A stretch of DNA of 46,086 nucleotides, from positions 1-46,086 of the IMG/VR virus record IMGVR_UViG_3300036444_000019; one strand, written 5' to 3'. Below, in pieces: positions 1 through 46,086 of this stretch (the first letter of the stretch is position 1; every line of letters begins with the position of its first letter). The DNA is from a virus. The translations under genes were made by a program, and so were the position numbers. Under the pieces are notes generated by a model. That model made no database searches, was not told the origin of the DNA, and saw nothing but the letters and a program-made list of their open reading frames with translations.

Positions 1-1149
1 TCAGGCAGCAATCCCTACGTGATGTTGATTGGTCCCGAGTCCCCCACCCGTGGGGAACATTGGGGGGACCGGCGAATTGGCGGATTTCTGCGGGTTTGCG
101 CTGCGCTCCCCCTGCATGGTCCCCCGGCGAACTAGAGCCTCTTCGAGATTTTGGGGCTTCACATGTGCATACCGAAGGGTCGTTTCGATGCGTTTGTGGC
201 CCATCCACTCTTTGATGACAAAGACGTTTACGCCCGCGTCCACGAGGCGAGTCGCGCAGGTATGACGGGTGACGTGGAAGACGAACTCATCGTCCGCTTC
301 CAGGCCCATGTGCTTCTTGGCACGCTCCCACCAGGACCGAAGGCCCCGCTGGGTCGGCATGGCTTTGGTCCTGATAAGGTCCCGCAGCATCTGTGCGATC
401 TCTGGCTCCATGGGCACCGTCCTTGGAGAGTCCGTCTTGGTCTTCCAGAGGTGCAAGCGCGTGCCGTTAATCTGTGACAGCTCGGCGGTCAACAACTCGT
501 CACGACGGCAGCCGGTCTCGATCGCTACCTTAATGAGCTGCCAGACGGCGGTGGCCTCCGGACGCTGACGGGACAGCAGGAAGTCACGCAGCGCGTCCTC
601 CTCCTCTTCCGTGATCCAGCGAATGCGGCCGGAAGTCTCTTTGCGCCACGCGAACTCGATCTCGTCCCTGATGGGGACCCTGCGGTACTTGCGGCCCTTC
701 GCCCATACCAGGAAGGTCCTGAGGGACGACAGGTAGCGATTGATGGTCGCATCCGCTTTGCCGATCGCACCGAGCTGCGCAATGAGCCGGTCGACGGCTT
801 GGGTGTCCACATCGTCCAGGCGAGTCTTACGGCCCATGATGGAAGCGATCAGGTCCATGTGGGCCCAAGAGTTTTCCTCGGACGACTGCCCGACCCAGAG
901 CTTGCCCTTGGCGAGCGGGATGACCGACTCGAAGGTGTGGACCTCAGGGGCTCCAACAGCCTGCCCAGGGGCCGGCGGGGCCTCGCCGCGGCTCCAGGTC
1001 GCGAGAACGGCCTCTTCGTCCTGCTTGGCCTCATCGTACGACGGCCAGCGCTTCTTGTAGCGCTCCCCGGTCTTCCGGTTGCCTTTGACCAGTTCGACTA
1101 CCCACTTGCCGGTCGGCTTGCCTTTCACCTTCTCGGCGTAAATGGACAC
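1..1149 (-). CDS. int: tyrosine recombinase, phage integrase
   Basis: Catalyses site-specific integration and excision of the phage. The 382-residue protein has a core-binding region (about 70-155) and a C-terminal catalytic domain. Visible catalytic residues are R215 (TGCRRDEL), a candidate beta-hairpin lysine near K238, H292 and R295 (HVTRH), H318 (WMGHK) and Y327 (TTLRYAHV), so the full RKHRHY set is present. The start is GTG at 1149, with GGAGG 7 nt upstream inside the preceding gene. Only 2 nt separate it from the MarR-like gene, so the two are probably translated together. It lies at the prophage edge, as expected for an integrase next to attP. The stop codon is the first three bases of the window, so the attachment site beyond it is not visible. 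The proline- and asparagine-rich tail after about 345 is probably flexible. Confidence 0.96.
   Translation of the reverse strand: MSIYAEKVKGKPTGKWVVELVKGNRKTGERYKKRWPSYDEAKQDEEAVLATWSRGEAPPAPGQAVGAPEVHTFESVIPLAKGKLWVGQSSEENSWAHMDLIASIMGRKTRLDDVDTQAVDRLIAQLGAIGKADATINRYLSSLRTFLVWAKGRKYRRVPIRDEIEFAWRKETSGRIRWITEEEEDALRDFLLSRQRPEATAVWQLIKVAIETGCRRDELLTAELSQINGTRLHLWKTKTDSPRTVPMEPEIAQMLRDLIRTKAMPTQRGLRSWWERAKKHMGLEADDEFVFHVTRHTCATRLVDAGVNVFVIKEWMGHKRIETTLRYAHVKPQNLEEALVRRGTMQGERSANPQKSANSPVPPMFPTGGGLGTNQHHVGIAA
78..93 (+). repeat. left copy of a 16-bp arm-type repeat
   Basis: TGGCGGATTTCTGCGG lies inside the 3' end of int. A copy with one mismatch lies at 45688-45703 in the same orientation, near the other prophage end. 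Each copy is preceded by GGGGGACC, at 63-70 and at 45669-45676. In the circular phage the two would flank attP, as integrase or excisionase arm-binding sites do. That role is inferred. Confidence 0.45.
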
Positions 1150-1151
1150 GT

Positions 1152-1514
1152 TTAGTCCTCCAGTATCTCGGCCAGTGTGTTGAGCAGCAGCTTGCCCTTA
1201 GGGGTGAGCGTGTAAGCCACGGACCGAAGGTTTTTAGGGTCCTGCGTACGCTGAAGGAGGCCGTAGCCCTCGTCGCCGTTCCGCAGTTTGTCCGAGAGGT
1301 CCAGCAGGTGGCGGCTCATTGTGGCCTTCGTAGCGCCGGCAAGTTCCGCCAGCTCCACAACGCCTTTCCCTTCATTGTCCGCAACGAGGTAGAGGGTGTG
1401 CACGAGCTGCACCGGGACCGTCTCCGCAATGCCCGACCGAACGGCCGAACAGAAGCGCTTTCCCTTGCGGATCGAGCGGGCAATCTTCGCTTGGTGGTCG
1501 GTTTGCTGGGACAT
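1152..1514 (-). CDS. MarR-like winged-helix regulator, candidate lysogeny repressor
   Basis: This 120-residue DNA-binding protein has a winged-helix core. A recognition-helix region is visible near residues 55-75 (ELAELAGATKATMSRHL). The wing and following strand are near 83-107 (GYGLLQRTQDPKNLRSVAYTLTPKG), which is the MarR pattern. GGAGAT lies about 8 nt before the ATG. The gene sits directly upstream of int, 2 nt away, and follows a strong terminator, so MarR-int forms its own transcription unit. Several GTCTGC/GCAGAC half-sites lie just upstream, suggesting autoregulation. MarR dimers bind palindromes of about 16-20 bp, which matches the operator family found across the prophage. The repressor role is inferred; an alternative is an excisionase-like or integration-control function. 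Confidence 0.8.
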   Translation of the reverse strand: MSQQTDHQAKIARSIRKGKRFCSAVRSGIAETVPVQLVHTLYLVADNEGKGVVELAELAGATKATMSRHLLDLSDKLRNGDEGYGLLQRTQDPKNLRSVAYTLTPKGKLLLNTLAEILED

Positions 1515-1530
1515 TGTTGATCTCCATTAG

Positions 1531-1577
1531 GTGGTATGCAGACAATCTGCAAGTGGCAAACGTCTGCGGGCAACGAC
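1531..1577 (-). promoter_or_regulatory. operator-like half-site cluster upstream of MarR-int
   Basis: GCAGACAATCTGC (1538-1550) is an inverted repeat with 5-bp arms. A second region, 1562-1577, begins GTCTGCGG and ends GAC, matching the 16-bp operator family in 11 of 16 positions. Both lie in the leader of the MarR-like gene, between the upstream terminator and the start codon. This is the weakest match in the operator family. No convincing -35/-10 pair was assigned. Confidence 0.45.
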
Positions 1578-1621
1578 GGTTCCCACATAGATACTTACAG
1601 CCGCTATGCAACGTGAACGAA

Positions 1622-1655
1622 AAAAGAACCCACCGGGGGTACAGTGGGTTCTTTT
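1622..1655 (-). terminator. late-operon rho-independent terminator
   Basis: A perfect 12-bp stem (AAAAGAACCCAC at 1622-1633, GTGGGTTCTTTT at 1644-1655) encloses a 10-nt loop. It ends the long late transcript just after the last late gene. T-rich ends on both sides could let it work in both directions. It separates the late genes from the MarR-int unit, so late transcription should not strongly express the integrase. Confidence 0.9.
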
Positions 1656-23758: not shown

Positions 23759-23803
23759 CCCCCTATAGTCCCCCATTGGGAGACCGGCAGGGCCCTGTAG
23801 ACA

Positions 23804-23819
23804 GTCTGGAATTGCAGAC
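23804..23819. promoter_or_regulatory. 16-bp palindromic operator at the late promoter
   Basis: GTCTGGAATTGCAGAC matches the prophage operator consensus GTCTGCANTTGNAGAC with one clear mismatch. It begins 1 nt from the 23-bp promoter-like element, on the downstream side when read toward the late genes. A repressor bound here could block a transcribing phage RNA polymerase. Confidence 0.65.
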
Positions 23820-23820
23820 A

Positions 23821-23843
23821 GTTGTGCATACGGTCGCACTAAT
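23821..23843 (-). promoter_or_regulatory. candidate phage RNA polymerase promoter for late genes
   Basis: On the minus strand the element reads ATTAGTGCGACCGTATGCAC plus AAC. An identical 23-bp copy, in the same orientation, lies at 42839-42861 just before the DNA-replication genes. Its 5' part, TAGTGCGAC, resembles the TAATACGAC start of the T7 promoter. The two copies head the two gene blocks expected to depend on the viral polymerase. It is also an imperfect palindrome (GTGC...GCAC), so a regulator site is an alternative. Confidence 0.6.
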
Positions 23844-24663: not shown

Positions 24664-24731
24664 CCCCAGTCTCCTGCTGTTACCTGCCGTCACCATAGGC
24701 CCGGCAATGCGCATCCGGCATCTGAAAAATA

Positions 24732-24809
24732 ATCTGCAGTTGCTGACGATTTCCTATTGCGGACCGTGTACACCTATGCCAAACAGTCTGCAGACGCTGA
24801 CAGTCAGCG
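24732..24809. promoter_or_regulatory. two operator-like sites in the divergent region of the island
   Basis: ATCTGCAGTTGCTGAC (24732-24747) matches the operator consensus in 14 of 16 positions. GTCTGCAGACGCTGAC (24786-24801) is a second relative and contains the perfect palindrome GTCTGCAGAC. It runs into another perfect palindrome, CGCTGACAGTCAGCG (24795-24809). The intervening TGCGGACCGTGTACACC resembles part of the 23-bp promoter element, on the plus strand. The region separates the minus gene ending at 24421 from the plus-strand genes. Confidence 0.55.
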
Positions 24810-25032: not shown

Positions 25033-25224
25033 ATGGCTCAACCACTCACGACCGCATTCGATCGAGGCTACTTGGCCGGCGAGCAGGCCGGGCCGTGGGG
25101 CGCCAAGCCCGCTAATCCGTACAAAAGCCAGCGGCTATTCAATACCTGGGAGTACGGCTTCAGCCACGCCCAACTAGCTGCGCGGGCACAACGCGATCCC
25201 CACGGGCACCCGCAGGGAGCCTAA
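25033..25224 (+). CDS. RMF/CrpP-like small protein
   Basis: The 63-residue protein has the pattern AFDRGYLAGEQAG, then NPYKSQRLFNTWEYGFSHA. This spacing of G, NPY and W..GF is that of ribosome modulation factor-like proteins, the fold shared by RMF and CrpP. GGAGAAG lies 6 nt before the ATG. In a phage it may bind ribosomes or another RNA target during takeover or dormancy. The family resemblance is visual; function is inferred. Confidence 0.65.
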   Translation: MAQPLTTAFDRGYLAGEQAGPWGAKPANPYKSQRLFNTWEYGFSHAQLAARAQRDPHGHPQGA

Positions 25225-25296
25225 GGCGCCCCAAAGTCCTCCCAAAGTCACGCCTAGATATTCCGCAATTCCCGACATTCCGCAGGAGTAATCCCC

Positions 25297-25842
25297 ATGC
25301 TAACCGAAGTCCTCTACCTGACCCGCAAAGGTGACCGGCAGCAACTCGCCGCCGACATTCGCAAGGCCCTGGAGCCCCTCGGCGTGACCGTGGCGGTTCG
25401 CGAAGGAACCCGAGACCTCGCCGTCACCCTCAGCGGCCACGGGCTTAGCGCCCTGGTTCATCTGGACGCCAGGGCACAGTCGGAGGCGCCGATGATCCAC
25501 TGGCATGAGGCCCAGCGGGACCTCGTGGGCGCCGTGCGGGGCGCTTGGTCGGACGTGAACAACATTCATCGCCGGAAGGCCACGTCGTTCCCCTGCAGCA
25601 TGATCGACGTCATCGAGCGGCTGCAGCGGGGCTTTCAGGCAGCCGCAGATGGCTCGGCATTCATGCCGTACCCTGCAGGCACCGAGATGGCGGCGGCGGG
25701 TGACCACAGGGTCGAGCCGGGCACGGTGGGGCGTGTGGTCGACTGCTCGCATGAACACGTCCGCCTGCGCTTCGCCGATCATCGCGTGTTGTGCTTCGCT
25801 CCGGACGCCGTGGCCCTCGTGCCTCAGCAGGTAGCGGCATGA
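25297..25842 (+). CDS. hypothetical protein of the plus-strand island
   Basis: The 181-residue protein was not recognised. The first 60 residues look like a small alpha/beta domain (TRKGDRQQLAADIRKALEPLGVTVAV). The last 45 (VEPGTVGRVVDCSHEHVRLRFADHRVLCFAPD) resemble a small SH3-like beta barrel. AGGAG lies 8 nt before the ATG. The stop overlaps the next start as ATGA, so it is in an operon with the two following genes. Confidence 0.7.
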   Translation: MLTEVLYLTRKGDRQQLAADIRKALEPLGVTVAVREGTRDLAVTLSGHGLSALVHLDARAQSEAPMIHWHEAQRDLVGAVRGAWSDVNNIHRRKATSFPCSMIDVIERLQRGFQAAADGSAFMPYPAGTEMAAAGDHRVEPGTVGRVVDCSHEHVRLRFADHRVLCFAPDAVALVPQQVAA

Positions 25843-26870: not shown

Positions 26871-26900
26871 TTGCATCGGATGGTTAACCGATGGCATTAT
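26871..26900 (+). promoter_or_regulatory. promoter with inverted repeat upstream of the XRE gene
   Basis: TTGCAT (26871-26876) and CATTAT (26895-26900) are separated by 18 bp and fit a sigma-70 promoter. Between and around them lies an inverted repeat, CATCGG...CCGATG (26874-26893), centred on the palindrome GGTTAACC. This suggests autorepression by the XRE protein. The site is unrelated to the GTCTGC operators, so the island regulator probably has its own binding site. Confidence 0.6.
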
Positions 26901-26938
26901 GTCCCTGTCGGCACTTGCCGCCACACGAGGAAACGCAC

Positions 26939-27487
26939 ATGGCCCCGCGACAACGCAAAGGCTCGGGAGTAAACCCATCGGATACCTTGGGAACTCCCGA
27001 GGGCCGTGGGGGACAGAATGTCACGCAGCGTTCAGCTTCGATGGGCGATAAGGCGCCGCAAGAGTACCAGGAGGAGCTGGAAGCGTACGACCGCATCAGC
27101 CGTCTCTTGGAAGTTGCCGAGCTGGCCCGCCAAGTATTCACAAGGCCCAGCGGAGTATTGCTTCCGGTGACGCCCGAGCGAGTCAAAAAGATACGCGAAG
27201 AGCTGGGACTGTCGCAGGCAGGACTTGGCCAATTGCTCCGTCTCGGCGCCCACGGGAAACGGACTGTCGCCCGTTGGGAAGCCGGGGACGTCCCTGTGTC
27301 TGGACCAGTCTCGGTGGCCTTGGAGGCCCTTGAGAGCGGATGGAGCCCAGGGGACGGCAGATGGCACGATCTACGGCAGGCTTATCTGTCCGTCCTCGAC
27401 GCTATCGACGATGCCGTTCGCCAAGCCCGCGAGCAGGTACACGCTACAGGAGCCGGCCGCGACGATGACAAGGACAGCCGTCCTTAG
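26939..27487 (+). CDS. XRE-family helix-turn-helix regulator
   Basis: The 182-residue protein starts at the ATG at 26939, with GAGG 9 nt upstream; an earlier in-frame ATG lies inside the promoter. Residues about 80-135 form an XRE helix-turn-helix (TPERVKKIREELGLSQAGLGQLLRLG...RTVARWEAGD), resembling the C-terminal domain of MqsA/HigA-type regulators. The N-terminal part is unrelated to CI protease domains. It may be a second lysogeny regulator or an antirepressor-type control protein. Confidence 0.8.
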   Translation: MAPRQRKGSGVNPSDTLGTPEGRGGQNVTQRSASMGDKAPQEYQEELEAYDRISRLLEVAELARQVFTRPSGVLLPVTPERVKKIREELGLSQAGLGQLLRLGAHGKRTVARWEAGDVPVSGPVSVALEALESGWSPGDGRWHDLRQAYLSVLDAIDDAVRQAREQVHATGAGRDDDKDSRP

Positions 27488-42695: not shown

Positions 42696-42758
42696 TGCGG
42701 CGTAGAAATTCCGTACGTGCGGGTGAGCTGTCAGTGCCGACAGTCCGCGAATGTGGAC

Positions 42759-42795
42759 AAAAAGAAACCCCGAGCTGTCGTTGGACGGCCCGGGG
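42759..42795 (-). terminator. early terminator between RNA polymerase and ssDNA-binding protein genes
   Basis: GCCCCGGGC-type and GCTCGGGG-type arms (plus-strand 768-775 and 788-795 of the 42 kb) form an 8-position stem with one mismatch, followed by TTTCTTTTT on the minus strand. It lies between the promoter-like element and the ssDNA-binding protein start, so it can limit or attenuate both host and viral polymerases. Confidence 0.75.
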
Positions 42796-42838: not shown

Positions 42839-42861
42839 GTTGTGCATACGGTCGCACTAAT
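42839..42861 (-). promoter_or_regulatory. candidate phage RNA polymerase promoter for replication genes
   Basis: Identical over 23 bp to the element at 23821-23843 and in the same orientation (minus strand). It lies just after the RNA polymerase gene and before the replication genes, where a viral class II promoter is expected. A 16-bp operator lies 7 bp upstream. Confidence 0.62.
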
Positions 42862-42868
42862 GCCGACT

Positions 42869-42884
42869 GTCTACCATTTCAGAC
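42869..42884. promoter_or_regulatory. 16-bp palindromic operator
   Basis: GTCTACCATTTCAGAC keeps the GTCT/AGAC arms of the operator family (13 of 16 positions). It is followed on the minus strand by AGTCGGCATT, which is also found beside the operator at 45531. It ends 4 bp from the RNA polymerase stop codon. Confidence 0.65.
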
Positions 42885-42888
42885 TATA

Positions 42889-45483
42889 TCATCCGAAGGC
42901 GAACTCGGCTTCTAAGACCGCTCGAATGTCCAGGCCTCCCATCTTCGGGATGGGCTTCAGGTTTGCGATACCTTCCGCGCTGAGGACCCGCCGGGCGTAA
43001 GCGTCAATCTCCTGGAACGGGCAGTATCCTTCGTACTGTTCCACAAAGGCTTCTCGGATGATGCGGGAGAACCGCTCGGTCTTTCCGGCATGGGTTCCGA
43101 AGGAATCGTGGATGAACTGCAGGGAGGTGATGCCTTCGTCAAAGGCCCGCACGGCCACGCGCAGGAGGTGCGCGGCGTCCATGCTGTGGATCACATTCGG
43201 ACTGATCGCGCTGCGGGCCTTCTTCTTGTCGATGCGCTTCGTAGGTGCCTCACGGATCAGGCACTCGATCCGGGTCAGCACGTTTCCTCCTTCGTCGACC
43301 TTAGCGTCTCCCGTGGGAACGGTGACCTCACGATCGTACAGCCACATGTTCACGCGCTTGGACGTGTATTCGCTGTAGCGCTGAACCACAGGCATCCCGC
43401 TGGGGGCCCGCCAGATAACCGGGAGGCTCTCGTGGGCCAGCAGGGCGGCGACGTGCTGGAACCATTCGGAGGCCTCGTGTGCCTGGGGGGCGGTCTTGAC
43501 GATCGCCGCATGGGCGTGGGCAGCCAACGTGTGGGCGCAGGTGAAGCCGCCATCGTGCGCGTAGGTGACCTCGCCGGTCTCCTTGTCCGTGCGGGCCGTC
43601 AGGAGGCTGTACGGGTGCTTTTCCAGGTCTCCCAGGGCCACCTTGTCGGCCAGCGGGCGCATCAGGTCGACCATGTGCTGATCGCGCATTCCAAACTTAC
43701 CGGACCCGTAGAAGTAGGTCATGGTGTTTCGCTTGAAGGTGCCGCGGTGAACGCCTTCGGCTAGGATCGTGATGCAGGCTTCGTCCCCGCCGGCCGCGCA
43801 GGCCTCCAAGGTGGGCTTGGCCGCACTCACGACCACGCCATAAATGTCGCCTACGGTATCTCGCGGCAGCAGGTTGACGTGGTAGGCTTCCTGCTCGGCG
43901 CGGGTAATGGCTGAGTAGTGCTGGAGGCCCGAGCAGGAGCCGTCGAGAGCGATAGCGATGTTAGACGGAAACTCAGGGCTGAACCCCCAGGCGGCCCAGG
44001 CGGCATACTCCATGCAGGCCTGCAGGAAACAGAAGGCGCTGTCCGCCTTTGCCCACCAGTCATAGGTCGCGAAGGGGTCCGCCGCGGCCTGCAGGATCAG
44101 GGCCTCGTTGTCCTTCACCCACTGAACCCGAGAGCCGAACGGTTCCTTGCTGATCTTCCCGAAGTCCCCGCAGTTGGCGAGGTGGATCATCAACCACTTG
44201 CCCCCGTGCGCCCCCAGCGGGACGACGTCCGCGAACCGAAAGAGAGCCTTAATGTGGTCCGAGCGTTGGTGGTTGAAGTGCGGGACGGCGTAGACTCGGC
44301 CGCGGCTGTCGAGGCTATGGGGCAGGTAGAAGCAGGGGCGCTGCGCAAGTTCGTGGGCGGTTCCAATGTCCGAGTTGAAGATGCCCTCGTCGACCTTGGC
44401 GCCATCCCGCAGGTCCTTGATCGACTTGCGCTTGCGCGAAAGGGCCGTGCGGGTCGCCGGGTCATACTGGGCCCACTCCAATTCCGAGGACCGCTTAGGC
44501 AACTCAGGTATCTTGGTGAGCGGGAAGCTATCAGCGGGCCGGCGCTTGGTCTCGTAGGTCCATTCGACAACCGCCAGTATCTGCTGGTCGATCTTGAAGC
44601 GGGTCCCTTGGATCGCGTTGAGGCCGTCCAGGACCTGCTGCATCGAGCCGTCCTTAATAGCCTCCCGGAGGAGCTTTTGGTGCTCGCGGTTGTACGTGCG
44701 GACCAGCGGGACCGTCTTGCTGATCCGGTAGTCCAGATACGCCCCGGTGTCGAAGCGCTCCCAGCGGCGGGGCTCAACGACCATGGGCTTGAGGACTGGC
44801 TGGAGCCACGCGACCGCATCGGTCATCTCCGAGAGGGTCTCCAGGAACTCCTCCGTAAGCTGAATGACCGGGACGGTGCCGCGCTGGTCTACGAGGGTGC
44901 CGCGCTCGAAGATTGCGGAAAGCTCGGTGAGGATCAGGTTAAGGACGACGGAACCAACGAGCGCCTGGGTCCGGCGGGACCAGTCCAGGCCGAGCCCGAG
45001 TTGCCACGCGAGGCGCTCGTGGCGCTTGAGGTTGACGCTCTCCTTTGCCTCGCCCTCGGCCATTGCCAGGAACCGCTTGGCCGCCTTGGGGTCGGCTTCC
45101 TGGATCATCTTGGCTTCGATCTCGACCTGGACGGCACGGCCGATCGAGATGGTTACGTCCGACACTGAGGCGCCCTTGGCGAGGGTGTGAAAGGTCTTGC
45201 TCAGGGCAACGTAGGCGAGCTGATCCCGGTCGACCTCCCGCAGGGGCGCCAGGGCTGCTGAGGGCCGGCCCTTCTTCGCGCTGGCCGTCTCGACCCAGGA
45301 GGCGATGGCGGCACTGAGGATCGGAATGGCCCCGCGGATGACCTTCTGGACATCGTCTCTGCGCTCGAAGCCCTCGCGAGCGCCCTTGGCGTCCTGCCGG
45401 TCACAGTAGCGTGTCGCCCCCTCCTGAAGCGACGAAATTTCCATGGCCTGCTGAAACGCTACGGGATCGGCGTGAAGGGTCAT
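42889..45483 (-). CDS. single-subunit T7-like DNA-directed RNA polymerase
   Basis: The 864-residue enzyme starts at the ATG at 45483, with AAGGAG 8 nt upstream; a longer form is possible but lacks such a site. Motif A is DGSCSGLQHYSAI (D about 514), motif B FKRNTMTYFYGSGKFGM (K about 584) and motif C IHDSFGTHAG (D about 793), corresponding to T7 D537, K631 and D812. It should transcribe the replication and late genes from viral promoters. Its own transcription must begin with host RNA polymerase, so its promoter is the natural control point for lysogeny. Confidence 0.97.
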   Translation of the reverse strand: MTLHADPVAFQQAMEISSLQEGATRYCDRQDAKGAREGFERRDDVQKVIRGAIPILSAAIASWVETASAKKGRPSAALAPLREVDRDQLAYVALSKTFHTLAKGASVSDVTISIGRAVQVEIEAKMIQEADPKAAKRFLAMAEGEAKESVNLKRHERLAWQLGLGLDWSRRTQALVGSVVLNLILTELSAIFERGTLVDQRGTVPVIQLTEEFLETLSEMTDAVAWLQPVLKPMVVEPRRWERFDTGAYLDYRISKTVPLVRTYNREHQKLLREAIKDGSMQQVLDGLNAIQGTRFKIDQQILAVVEWTYETKRRPADSFPLTKIPELPKRSSELEWAQYDPATRTALSRKRKSIKDLRDGAKVDEGIFNSDIGTAHELAQRPCFYLPHSLDSRGRVYAVPHFNHQRSDHIKALFRFADVVPLGAHGGKWLMIHLANCGDFGKISKEPFGSRVQWVKDNEALILQAAADPFATYDWWAKADSAFCFLQACMEYAAWAAWGFSPEFPSNIAIALDGSCSGLQHYSAITRAEQEAYHVNLLPRDTVGDIYGVVVSAAKPTLEACAAGGDEACITILAEGVHRGTFKRNTMTYFYGSGKFGMRDQHMVDLMRPLADKVALGDLEKHPYSLLTARTDKETGEVTYAHDGGFTCAHTLAAHAHAAIVKTAPQAHEASEWFQHVAALLAHESLPVIWRAPSGMPVVQRYSEYTSKRVNMWLYDREVTVPTGDAKVDEGGNVLTRIECLIREAPTKRIDKKKARSAISPNVIHSMDAAHLLRVAVRAFDEGITSLQFIHDSFGTHAGKTERFSRIIREAFVEQYEGYCPFQEIDAYARRVLSAEGIANLKPIPKMGGLDIRAVLEAEFAFG

Positions 45484-45530
45484 TTTGGCGGCTCCTTTAG
45501 AGTGAGTTAAGCGCAGTCTCAATGCCGACT

Positions 45531-45575
45531 GTCTGCGATGGCGGAATGTATGGACGCAGCGGGGGCCGCGGTCAA
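45531..45575 (-). promoter_or_regulatory. host-type promoter of the RNA polymerase gene with overlapping operator
   Basis: On the minus strand, TTGACC (45575-45570) is followed after 18 bp by ATACAT or after 19 bp by TACATT, a sigma-70-type promoter. An operator relative, GTCTGCGATGGCGGAA (45531-45546, plus strand), overlaps the -10 region. A repressor bound there should block synthesis of the viral polymerase. ATTAGTGCGGACC, similar to the viral promoter element, lies 8 bp further upstream. Confidence 0.65.
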
Positions 45576-45618
45576 CAGGGGGTCCGCACTAATGGGGAAT
45601 AATCCCGAGAACGGGGGC

Positions 45619-45654
45619 AAAACAAAGGTCCCCCAGTGGGCGCACCGGAGGACC
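45619..45654 (-). terminator. terminator shielding the RNA polymerase gene from host transcription
   Basis: GGTCCTCC and GGGGGACC form an 8-bp stem with a 12-nt loop, followed by TTTGTTTT on the minus strand. It lies between the host tRNA-Leu promoter side and the viral RNA polymerase promoter, so it can stop transcription that enters the prophage through attR. Confidence 0.72.
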
Positions 45655-45687: not shown

Positions 45688-45703
45688 TGGCGGATGTCTG
45701 CGG
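45688..45703 (+). repeat. right copy of the 16-bp arm-type repeat
   Basis: TGGCGGATGTCTGCGG differs by one base from the copy at 78-93 and is likewise preceded by GGGGGACC. It overlaps the operator at 45696. With the left copy it flanks the attachment core in the circular phage. Confidence 0.45.
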
Positions 45704-45746
45704 TTGTAGACTGTATCACATCGGCAACCAGTCTGCATTTGTAGAC
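45696..45746. promoter_or_regulatory. two consensus operators beside attR
   Basis: GTCTGCGGTTGTAGAC (45696-45711) and GTCTGCATTTGTAGAC (45731-45746) are the best members of the operator family. They are 35 bp apart centre to centre, the second only 4 bp from the tRNA-derived core. They may bind the repressor, or may be integrase or excisionase sites. Confidence 0.6.
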
Positions 45747-45750
45747 TAGC

Positions 45751-45897: not shown

Positions 45898-46086
45898 ATG
45901 CCCGTCGAACCGCCCGTCCCCACCGCGCCGCCCGAGCGGCCGGTCCCCTCCCCCGCCCAGCCTTCGCAGCCGGGCCAGCCGGTTGCGCCGCCGCCCGAGC
46001 TCACCCCGCCGGGGCCGGACATTGACATCCCCGCTCCGCAGCCTGGCGGCGATCCCGGCACCGCGCCGGGGCAGCCGCTCGCATGA
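45898..46086 (+). CDS. host proline-rich small protein
   Basis: The 62-residue protein begins MPVEPPVPTAPPERPVP and is almost wholly P, A, G, D, Q and E. AAAGGAG lies 7 nt before the ATG. It is outside the prophage, divergent from the tRNA, and ends at the last base of the window. No signal peptide or domain is visible. Function is unknown. Confidence 0.72.
   Translation: MPVEPPVPTAPPERPVPSPAQPSQPGQPVAPPPELTPPGPDIDIPAPQPGGDPGTAPGQPLA

Follow-up and report, generated by a model that had tools for sequence, protein, structure and literature searches.

T7-like phages have long been considered strictly lytic, and a genome of this type that also carries an integrase gene raises the question of how its RNA polymerase (RNAP) would be kept silent in a lysogen. 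The window, i.e., the whole stretch of DNA analysed here, is an IMG/VR virus contig of 46,086 bp with the majority of its genes on the minus strand, where a T7-like RNAP, a ssDNA-binding protein, endonuclease I, the structural genes, marR and an integrase (int) follow in this order. On the evidence of sequence comparisons, the MarR-family protein encoded next to int is quite probably the lysogeny repressor of a temperate T7-like prophage, acting as a dimer on a set of palindromic dyads (Table 1). This reading constitutes a well-supported instance of an already published idea rather than a new one, since MarR-based repression of the phage RNAP was proposed for the Agrobacterium phage Pasto (Boeckman et al., 2022, Virology 568:86, as reported by papers citing it) and for LUZ100 in 2023 (PMC10134795).

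The most plausible reading of the window is a T7-like prophage occupying the same tRNA-Leu(TAG) gene as a related prophage of Sphingomonas desiccabilis CP1D, whose MarR is 67% identical (best segment). In S. desiccabilis, an intact tRNA follows int at one prophage end and a 5' tRNA half precedes the RNAP gene at the other. Integration into a tRNA gene is therefore seen through the halves in this relative, with the window holding the RNAP-side half only and the int-side att lying outside it. ARAGORN called no tRNA in the window, as expected if just the 5' half is present, and an Rfam search of the window gave no match. The attP of the phage is likewise best read as containing the 5' half of tRNA-Leu, and on contigs G400, G404 and G410 int, att and RNAP lie in one continuous piece. 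The prophage appears to be dormant in a Sphingomonas-type bacterium. A proline-rich ORF (45898-46086, plus strand) flanks it, and a similar ORF (L012) beside the S. desiccabilis prophage indicates that this end of the window is probably host DNA. Additionally, a region of G020 (C1, ~671-762 kb; L014, L019, L038, L047) encodes two T7-like RNAPs together with two MarR-int pairs in succession, and an intact tRNA-Leu-like sequence separates int from the second RNAP; these are apparently tandem prophages sharing one tRNA-Leu site.

The first-pass annotation had recognized a MarR-like winged helix at this locus, and Pfam, PHROG and a confident AlphaFold2 model (mean pLDDT 91.7) agree with it. The match to the Pfam MarR family (PF01047; E=1.4e-5, 25.3 bits) is barely above the gathering score of 24.6; despite this marginal value, the match to PHROG 9665 ('transcriptional regulator', E=1e-19) together with the predicted structure settles the assignment to a MarR fold. 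The model displays a predicted MarR-type fold with an N-terminal helix and a wing, and MepR, MarR and SlyA are among its top structural matches (MepR: Z=12.7, 2.8 Å over 107 residues). Chromosomal repressors of the MarR/MepR/SlyA type bind palindromic operators, about 16-20 bp long in the MarR family, and the window protein shares their winged-helix fold (Z up to 12.7). Unlike them, it is phage-borne and only 120 aa long, aligning to about residue 110 of MepR, near which it stops with the end of the dimerisation region missing. We know of no ligand for it.

Two elements of a temperate T7-like lysogeny module (marR-int-RNAP) are directly visible in the window: a single-subunit T7-type RNAP and a marR gene directly upstream of int. 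The 2-nt distance to int and the strong terminator ahead of marR, both claimed earlier, were recovered: the gap spans 1150-1151, before the GTG start of int (the homologous int start in L001 is ATG), and marR and int run in the same direction as a single unit behind the terminator, though the latter is absent from the list of a simple consensus terminator scan. This linkage was surveyed by one scan with a relative's integrase (13 contigs) plus the int-bearing prophages of Sphingomonadaceae G003, G006, G020 and G247, and a marR ORF was found directly upstream of int, with gaps of ~0-85 nt, in every int-bearing relative in which the upstream DNA is present. Further MarR homologues occur in LUZ100, RHEph01, P-SSP7 and pelagiphages, lying upstream of int in all three annotations compared.

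Table 1. Features of the lysogeny region and of the candidate operator sites in the window.
Feature	Coordinates	Strand	Basis
Tyrosine integrase, 382 aa, GTG start at 1149, 2 nt downstream of marR	1..1149	-	Pfam Phage_integrase E=2e-23
MarR-family winged-helix protein, candidate lysogeny repressor, 120 aa from ATG	1152..1514	-	Pfam, PHROG, structure model
Two operator half-sites in marR leader, ATGCAGACAATCTGCAA	1536..1552		half-site matrix
Degenerate dyad just past marR -10 region, in register with relatives' sites	1561..1578		leader alignment; own-matrix test not significant
Putative host promoter of marR-int, TTGCAT..TATGTGGGAAC	1581..1611	-	alignment with relatives' leaders
Intrinsic terminator upstream of marR	1622..1655	-	-20.4 kcal/mol, z=-5
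Operator dyad 3 nt downstream of late phage promoter, top genome match	23803..23820		matrix scan
Putative late phage RNAP promoter, identical 20-mer ATTAGTGCGACCGTATGCAC	23824..23843	-	exact repeat
Operator dyad at plus-strand early operon	24731..24748		matrix scan
Operator dyad at plus-strand early operon	24785..24802		matrix scan
Operator dyad ~20 nt before plus-strand ORF at 25297	25260..25277		matrix scan
Operator dyad between terminator-like hairpin and ssb	42742..42759		matrix scan
Putative phage RNAP promoter ATTAGTGCGACCGTATGCAC	42842..42861	-	exact repeat
Operator dyad 6 nt upstream of putative phage promoter near RNAP stop	42868..42885		matrix scan
T7-like RNA polymerase, proposed main target of MarR	42889..45522	-	Pfam RNA_pol E=2e-81
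Operator dyad at -10/+1 of putative RNAP host promoter	45530..45547		matrix scan
Putative RNAP host promoter, TTGACC 45575-45570, CATACA 45552-45547	45547..45575	-	inferred from relatives
Degenerate phage-type promoter core upstream of RNAP, 2 mismatches to CATTAGTGCGACC	45582..45594	-	sequence scan
Terminator between att array and RNAP	45627..45654	-	terminator analysis
Operator dyad 2 beside att core	45695..45712		matrix scan
Operator dyad 1, 3 nt from conserved TTTAGGT of att core	45730..45747		matrix scan + de novo search
tRNA-Leu(TAG) 5' half, att core at anticodon loop	45751..45789	-	comparison with S. desiccabilis

The placement of the host promoters of marR-int and of RNAP rests on conservation, and scans with strict sigma-70 patterns gave no promoter at the marR leader or the RNAP leader. 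The putative phage promoter is an exact 20-mer that is present exactly twice in the window and in none of 100 shuffles. For the degenerate promoter core upstream of RNAP, at least three matches were obtained in 3 of 100 shuffles.

Candidate operators were sought with a palindromic 18-bp matrix derived from relatives G001, G401 and G402 alone (consensus AGTCTGCAATTGCAGACT) and scanned across the whole window. The relatives' sites for this first matrix were chosen by eye, and a later de novo run, made without those sites, served as a check. Nine matches of at least 12 bits were obtained (12.2-26.0; next best 10.4) against a mean of 0.75 and a maximum of 4 in 20 shuffles of the window, and all nine fall outside predicted genes when their coordinates are checked against the ORF lists and the sequence. 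Binding-site-like repeats are found at the RNAP promoter (45530-45547 and 45695-45747) at the level of sequence. GTCTGC by itself is not enriched in the window (29 occurrences versus 35 expected), so that the complete dyad alone carries information. The divergent early operon, with its repressor-type sites, also includes an ORF (25033-25224, plus strand) that weakly resembles ribosome modulation factor (Pfam RMF, E=6e-4, under the cut-off).

These dyads recur in the relatives. With leave-one-out matrices, matches of at least 12 bits numbered 9 in the window, 6 in S. desiccabilis, 10 in G401 and 6 in G402, versus means over 20 shuffles each of 0.75, 0.15, 0.6 and 0.65, respectively, and their positions mostly correspond among the four genomes; a G402 match at 45065, inside int, may be due to chance. 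Each genome has two or three dyads beside the att core, and the dyad between the hairpin and ssb exceeds 12 bits in all four. The dyad at the -10 of the putative RNAP host promoter is common to the four genomes, scoring under 12 bits in S. desiccabilis and G402, and that near the RNAP stop, upstream of the putative phage promoter, scores 17.0 in the window, 16.8 in G401 and below 12 in the other two. Two corresponding dyads lie in the divergent early operon, some of them below 12 bits, and the dyad located 3 nt past the late promoter is found in the window and G402 and is weaker in S. desiccabilis and G401.

In the de novo palindrome search, each phage was analysed separately over the marR leader, the att-RNAP interval and the DNA downstream of RNAP, with 12 shuffles each. 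The resulting z values were 8.1 (window), 8.5, 9.8, 12.2, 10.2 (G407), 6.6 (G410) and 4.1 (G400), and the consensus varies between phages (AGTCTACAATTGTAGACT, AATCCGCAATTGCGGAAT, GTTCCACAATTGTGGAAC, ACTCCTAGATCTAGGAGT). No convincing dyad emerged from this search in G403, G405 or G006, and that of G020a was weak (z 3.1). A motif in G408 (z 4.2; RNAP upstream DNA missing) was distrusted as GC-rich.

The marR leader itself gives a mixed picture. The operator half-sites that the first-pass annotation had placed there were found again, ATGCAGACA at 1536 (12.4 bits) and TTGCAGATT at 1544 (12.0 bits), using a half-site matrix built from the window's other sites; two matches at a 7-bit threshold occur in 2.4% of 86-bp segments. 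When the marR leaders are aligned, most phages show a TTGAC-like box followed by a GGAAC box and an 18-mer that keeps register. With the marR leader left out of matrix training, 7 of 10 phages have a site in their own leader at p<=0.016. The same test gave no full dyad in the marR leader of the window (p=0.76), G020a or G006. MarR autoregulation is thus suggested as likely in the clade and uncertain in the window, where half-sites without a full dyad would imply weaker autoregulation than in the relatives. At the other end of the unit, a GCAGA/CCGC-rich stretch lies inside the 3' end of int (75-96), likewise in L039 upstream of the att tRNA, and may represent an additional site flanking att on its int side.

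Which protein reads the dyads can be approached through their divergence. Across eight phages, whose pairs are non-independent, motif similarity correlates with the identity of MarR (r=0.86), RNAP (0.84) and Int (0.67), and, under the same non-independence, MarR retains a partial correlation of 0.80 when Int is controlled for and 0.53 when RNAP is, and RNAP one of 0.45 when MarR is controlled for. In these sequence comparisons, Int alone accounts for motif similarity worse than MarR does, while RNAP tracks the motif nearly as well, which together with the non-independence of the pairs leaves phylogeny without the power to single out MarR. To our knowledge, T7-type polymerases make no use of such palindromes, and MarR is the sole regulator found throughout the phages compared.

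Another DNA-binding protein of the phage, either the integrase at arm-type sites or an unannotated regulator, could instead read the dyads, with MarR as an accessory. In several phages, two or three dyads do adjoin the att core with constant spacing, an arrangement expected of integrase arm sites: in the window, G001, G401, G402 and G407, the first 18-mer begins 10-12 nt from the start of TTTAGGT and another at 45 nt. However, dyads also occur at promoters ~22 kb from att, and motif similarity follows MarR above Int. The integrase of G400 is 67-68% identical to that of the window, yet its MarR is ~40% identical and its motif different, whereas G402 (Int 64%, MarR 54%) has the window's motif class. 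Moreover, in S. desiccabilis int and the tRNA are only ~20 nt apart, with no dyad in that gap. This explanation is therefore unlikely, although it fares best among the alternatives to MarR as the repressor.

The published proposals provide a second point of comparison. In LUZ100, cotranscription of marR and int was measured, a terminator was located after int and MarR was proposed to repress the RNAP promoter, and lysogens were not obtained (PMC10134795). Similar to the window, LUZ100 has a MarR-like gene upstream of int, and int is followed by a terminator before the phage RNAP. Unlike the window, its tRNA-Leu lies between marR and int, its MarR is ~34% identical over 72% of the query, and no shared dyad was found there, the dyad test giving nothing significant for LUZ100 or P-SSP7; the window additionally has a putative host promoter serving RNAP. 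For Pasto, binding sites were proposed to flank the RNAP promoter (Boeckman et al., 2022, through citing papers). Its GenBank record shows the order HTH gene, int, tRNA-Leu, RNAP, and repeated dyads (z 9.5-14) were found by the present test, whereas it differs in having additional genes between int and tRNA-Leu and its own dyad, AGTCACTCAAGNGTGACG. Rhizobium phage RHEph01 also has MarR, then int, then RNAP, with a dyad shared by the marR and RNAP leaders (z 5.1), and in Pelagibacter HTVC phages MarR and int are close together; both differ from the window in their distant proteins and different motif.

MarR homologues in this wider group were previously read as takeover factors: that of P-SSP7 was considered to redirect transcription, and marR of HTVC022P is highly expressed early. 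The window's MarR might by analogy act on host or phage transcription during lytic growth rather than as a lysogeny repressor, but this is improbable because marR is linked to int in a prophage that occupies tRNA-Leu, and the dyads are positioned on promoters and beside the att core.

The earlier premise that a CI-type repressor is absent held only in part. A search of the window for Peptidase_S24 (PF00717), the domain expected of a CI/LexA-type repressor, gave no match, whereas an XRE/HTH_3 ORF lies within 26891-27487 on the plus strand. Its HTH_3 score exceeds the cut-off in a six-frame search (23.6 versus 23 bits) and falls below it in a protein scan (22.1 bits), it matches the transcriptional regulator PHROG 14076, and its orientation is opposite to that of most phage genes, all but the protein-scan score speaking for a true lysogeny repressor encoded here. 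Nevertheless, a search of 12 relatives recovered the XRE gene in only 4 and in none of the three closest (G001, G401, G402), all of which have marR beside int, making this assignment very doubtful. An inverted repeat, CATCGG-N8-CCGATG, near 26875-26894 overlaps the region upstream of the XRE ORF. Finally, host regulators commonly have palindromic sites at phage promoters, but a regulator such as LexA is a highly improbable reader of the dyads, since a shared host factor would retain one motif and the motif changes among phages of related hosts (AGTCTGCAATTGCAGACT, GTTCCACAATTGTGGAAC, ACTCCTAGATCTAGGAGT).

MarR as the lysogeny repressor therefore draws on synteny, fold, dyads in the RNAP promoter region (45531-45575) and at both exact copies of the putative phage promoter, and the change of motif between phages, set against the partly wrong premise about CI/XRE proteins and the own leader without a full dyad. 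According to this model, a MarR dimer would occupy the 18-bp sites and prevent the host from transcribing the phage RNAP gene and the early operon. Bound MarR would also stop the phage RNAP at phage promoters, so that leaked polymerase would be silenced as well. Cotranscription of marR and int would make repression and integration coincide, and the terminator after the att site would insulate the polymerase gene. As the protein has no autocleavage domain, induction would proceed through loss or dilution of MarR and not through RecA-driven cleavage. More tentatively, MarR may also directly control site-specific recombination: the spacing between the dyads and the adjoining att core is constant, and bound MarR could thereby block excision at attR. 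We found no description of dyads abutting the att core in the literature, where Boeckman et al. (2022) was represented by the papers citing it.

If MarR does act at attR, prophage excision would be tied to derepression of the RNA polymerase in a single step. The silence of temperate T7-like phages has so far rested on hypothesis, with no binding data found in the accessible literature, and a candidate repressor without an autocleavage domain raises the question of the route by which such prophages are induced. With its compact candidate repressor, nine sites of defined position and cognate motifs varying between phages, this clade makes clean specificity-swap tests possible.
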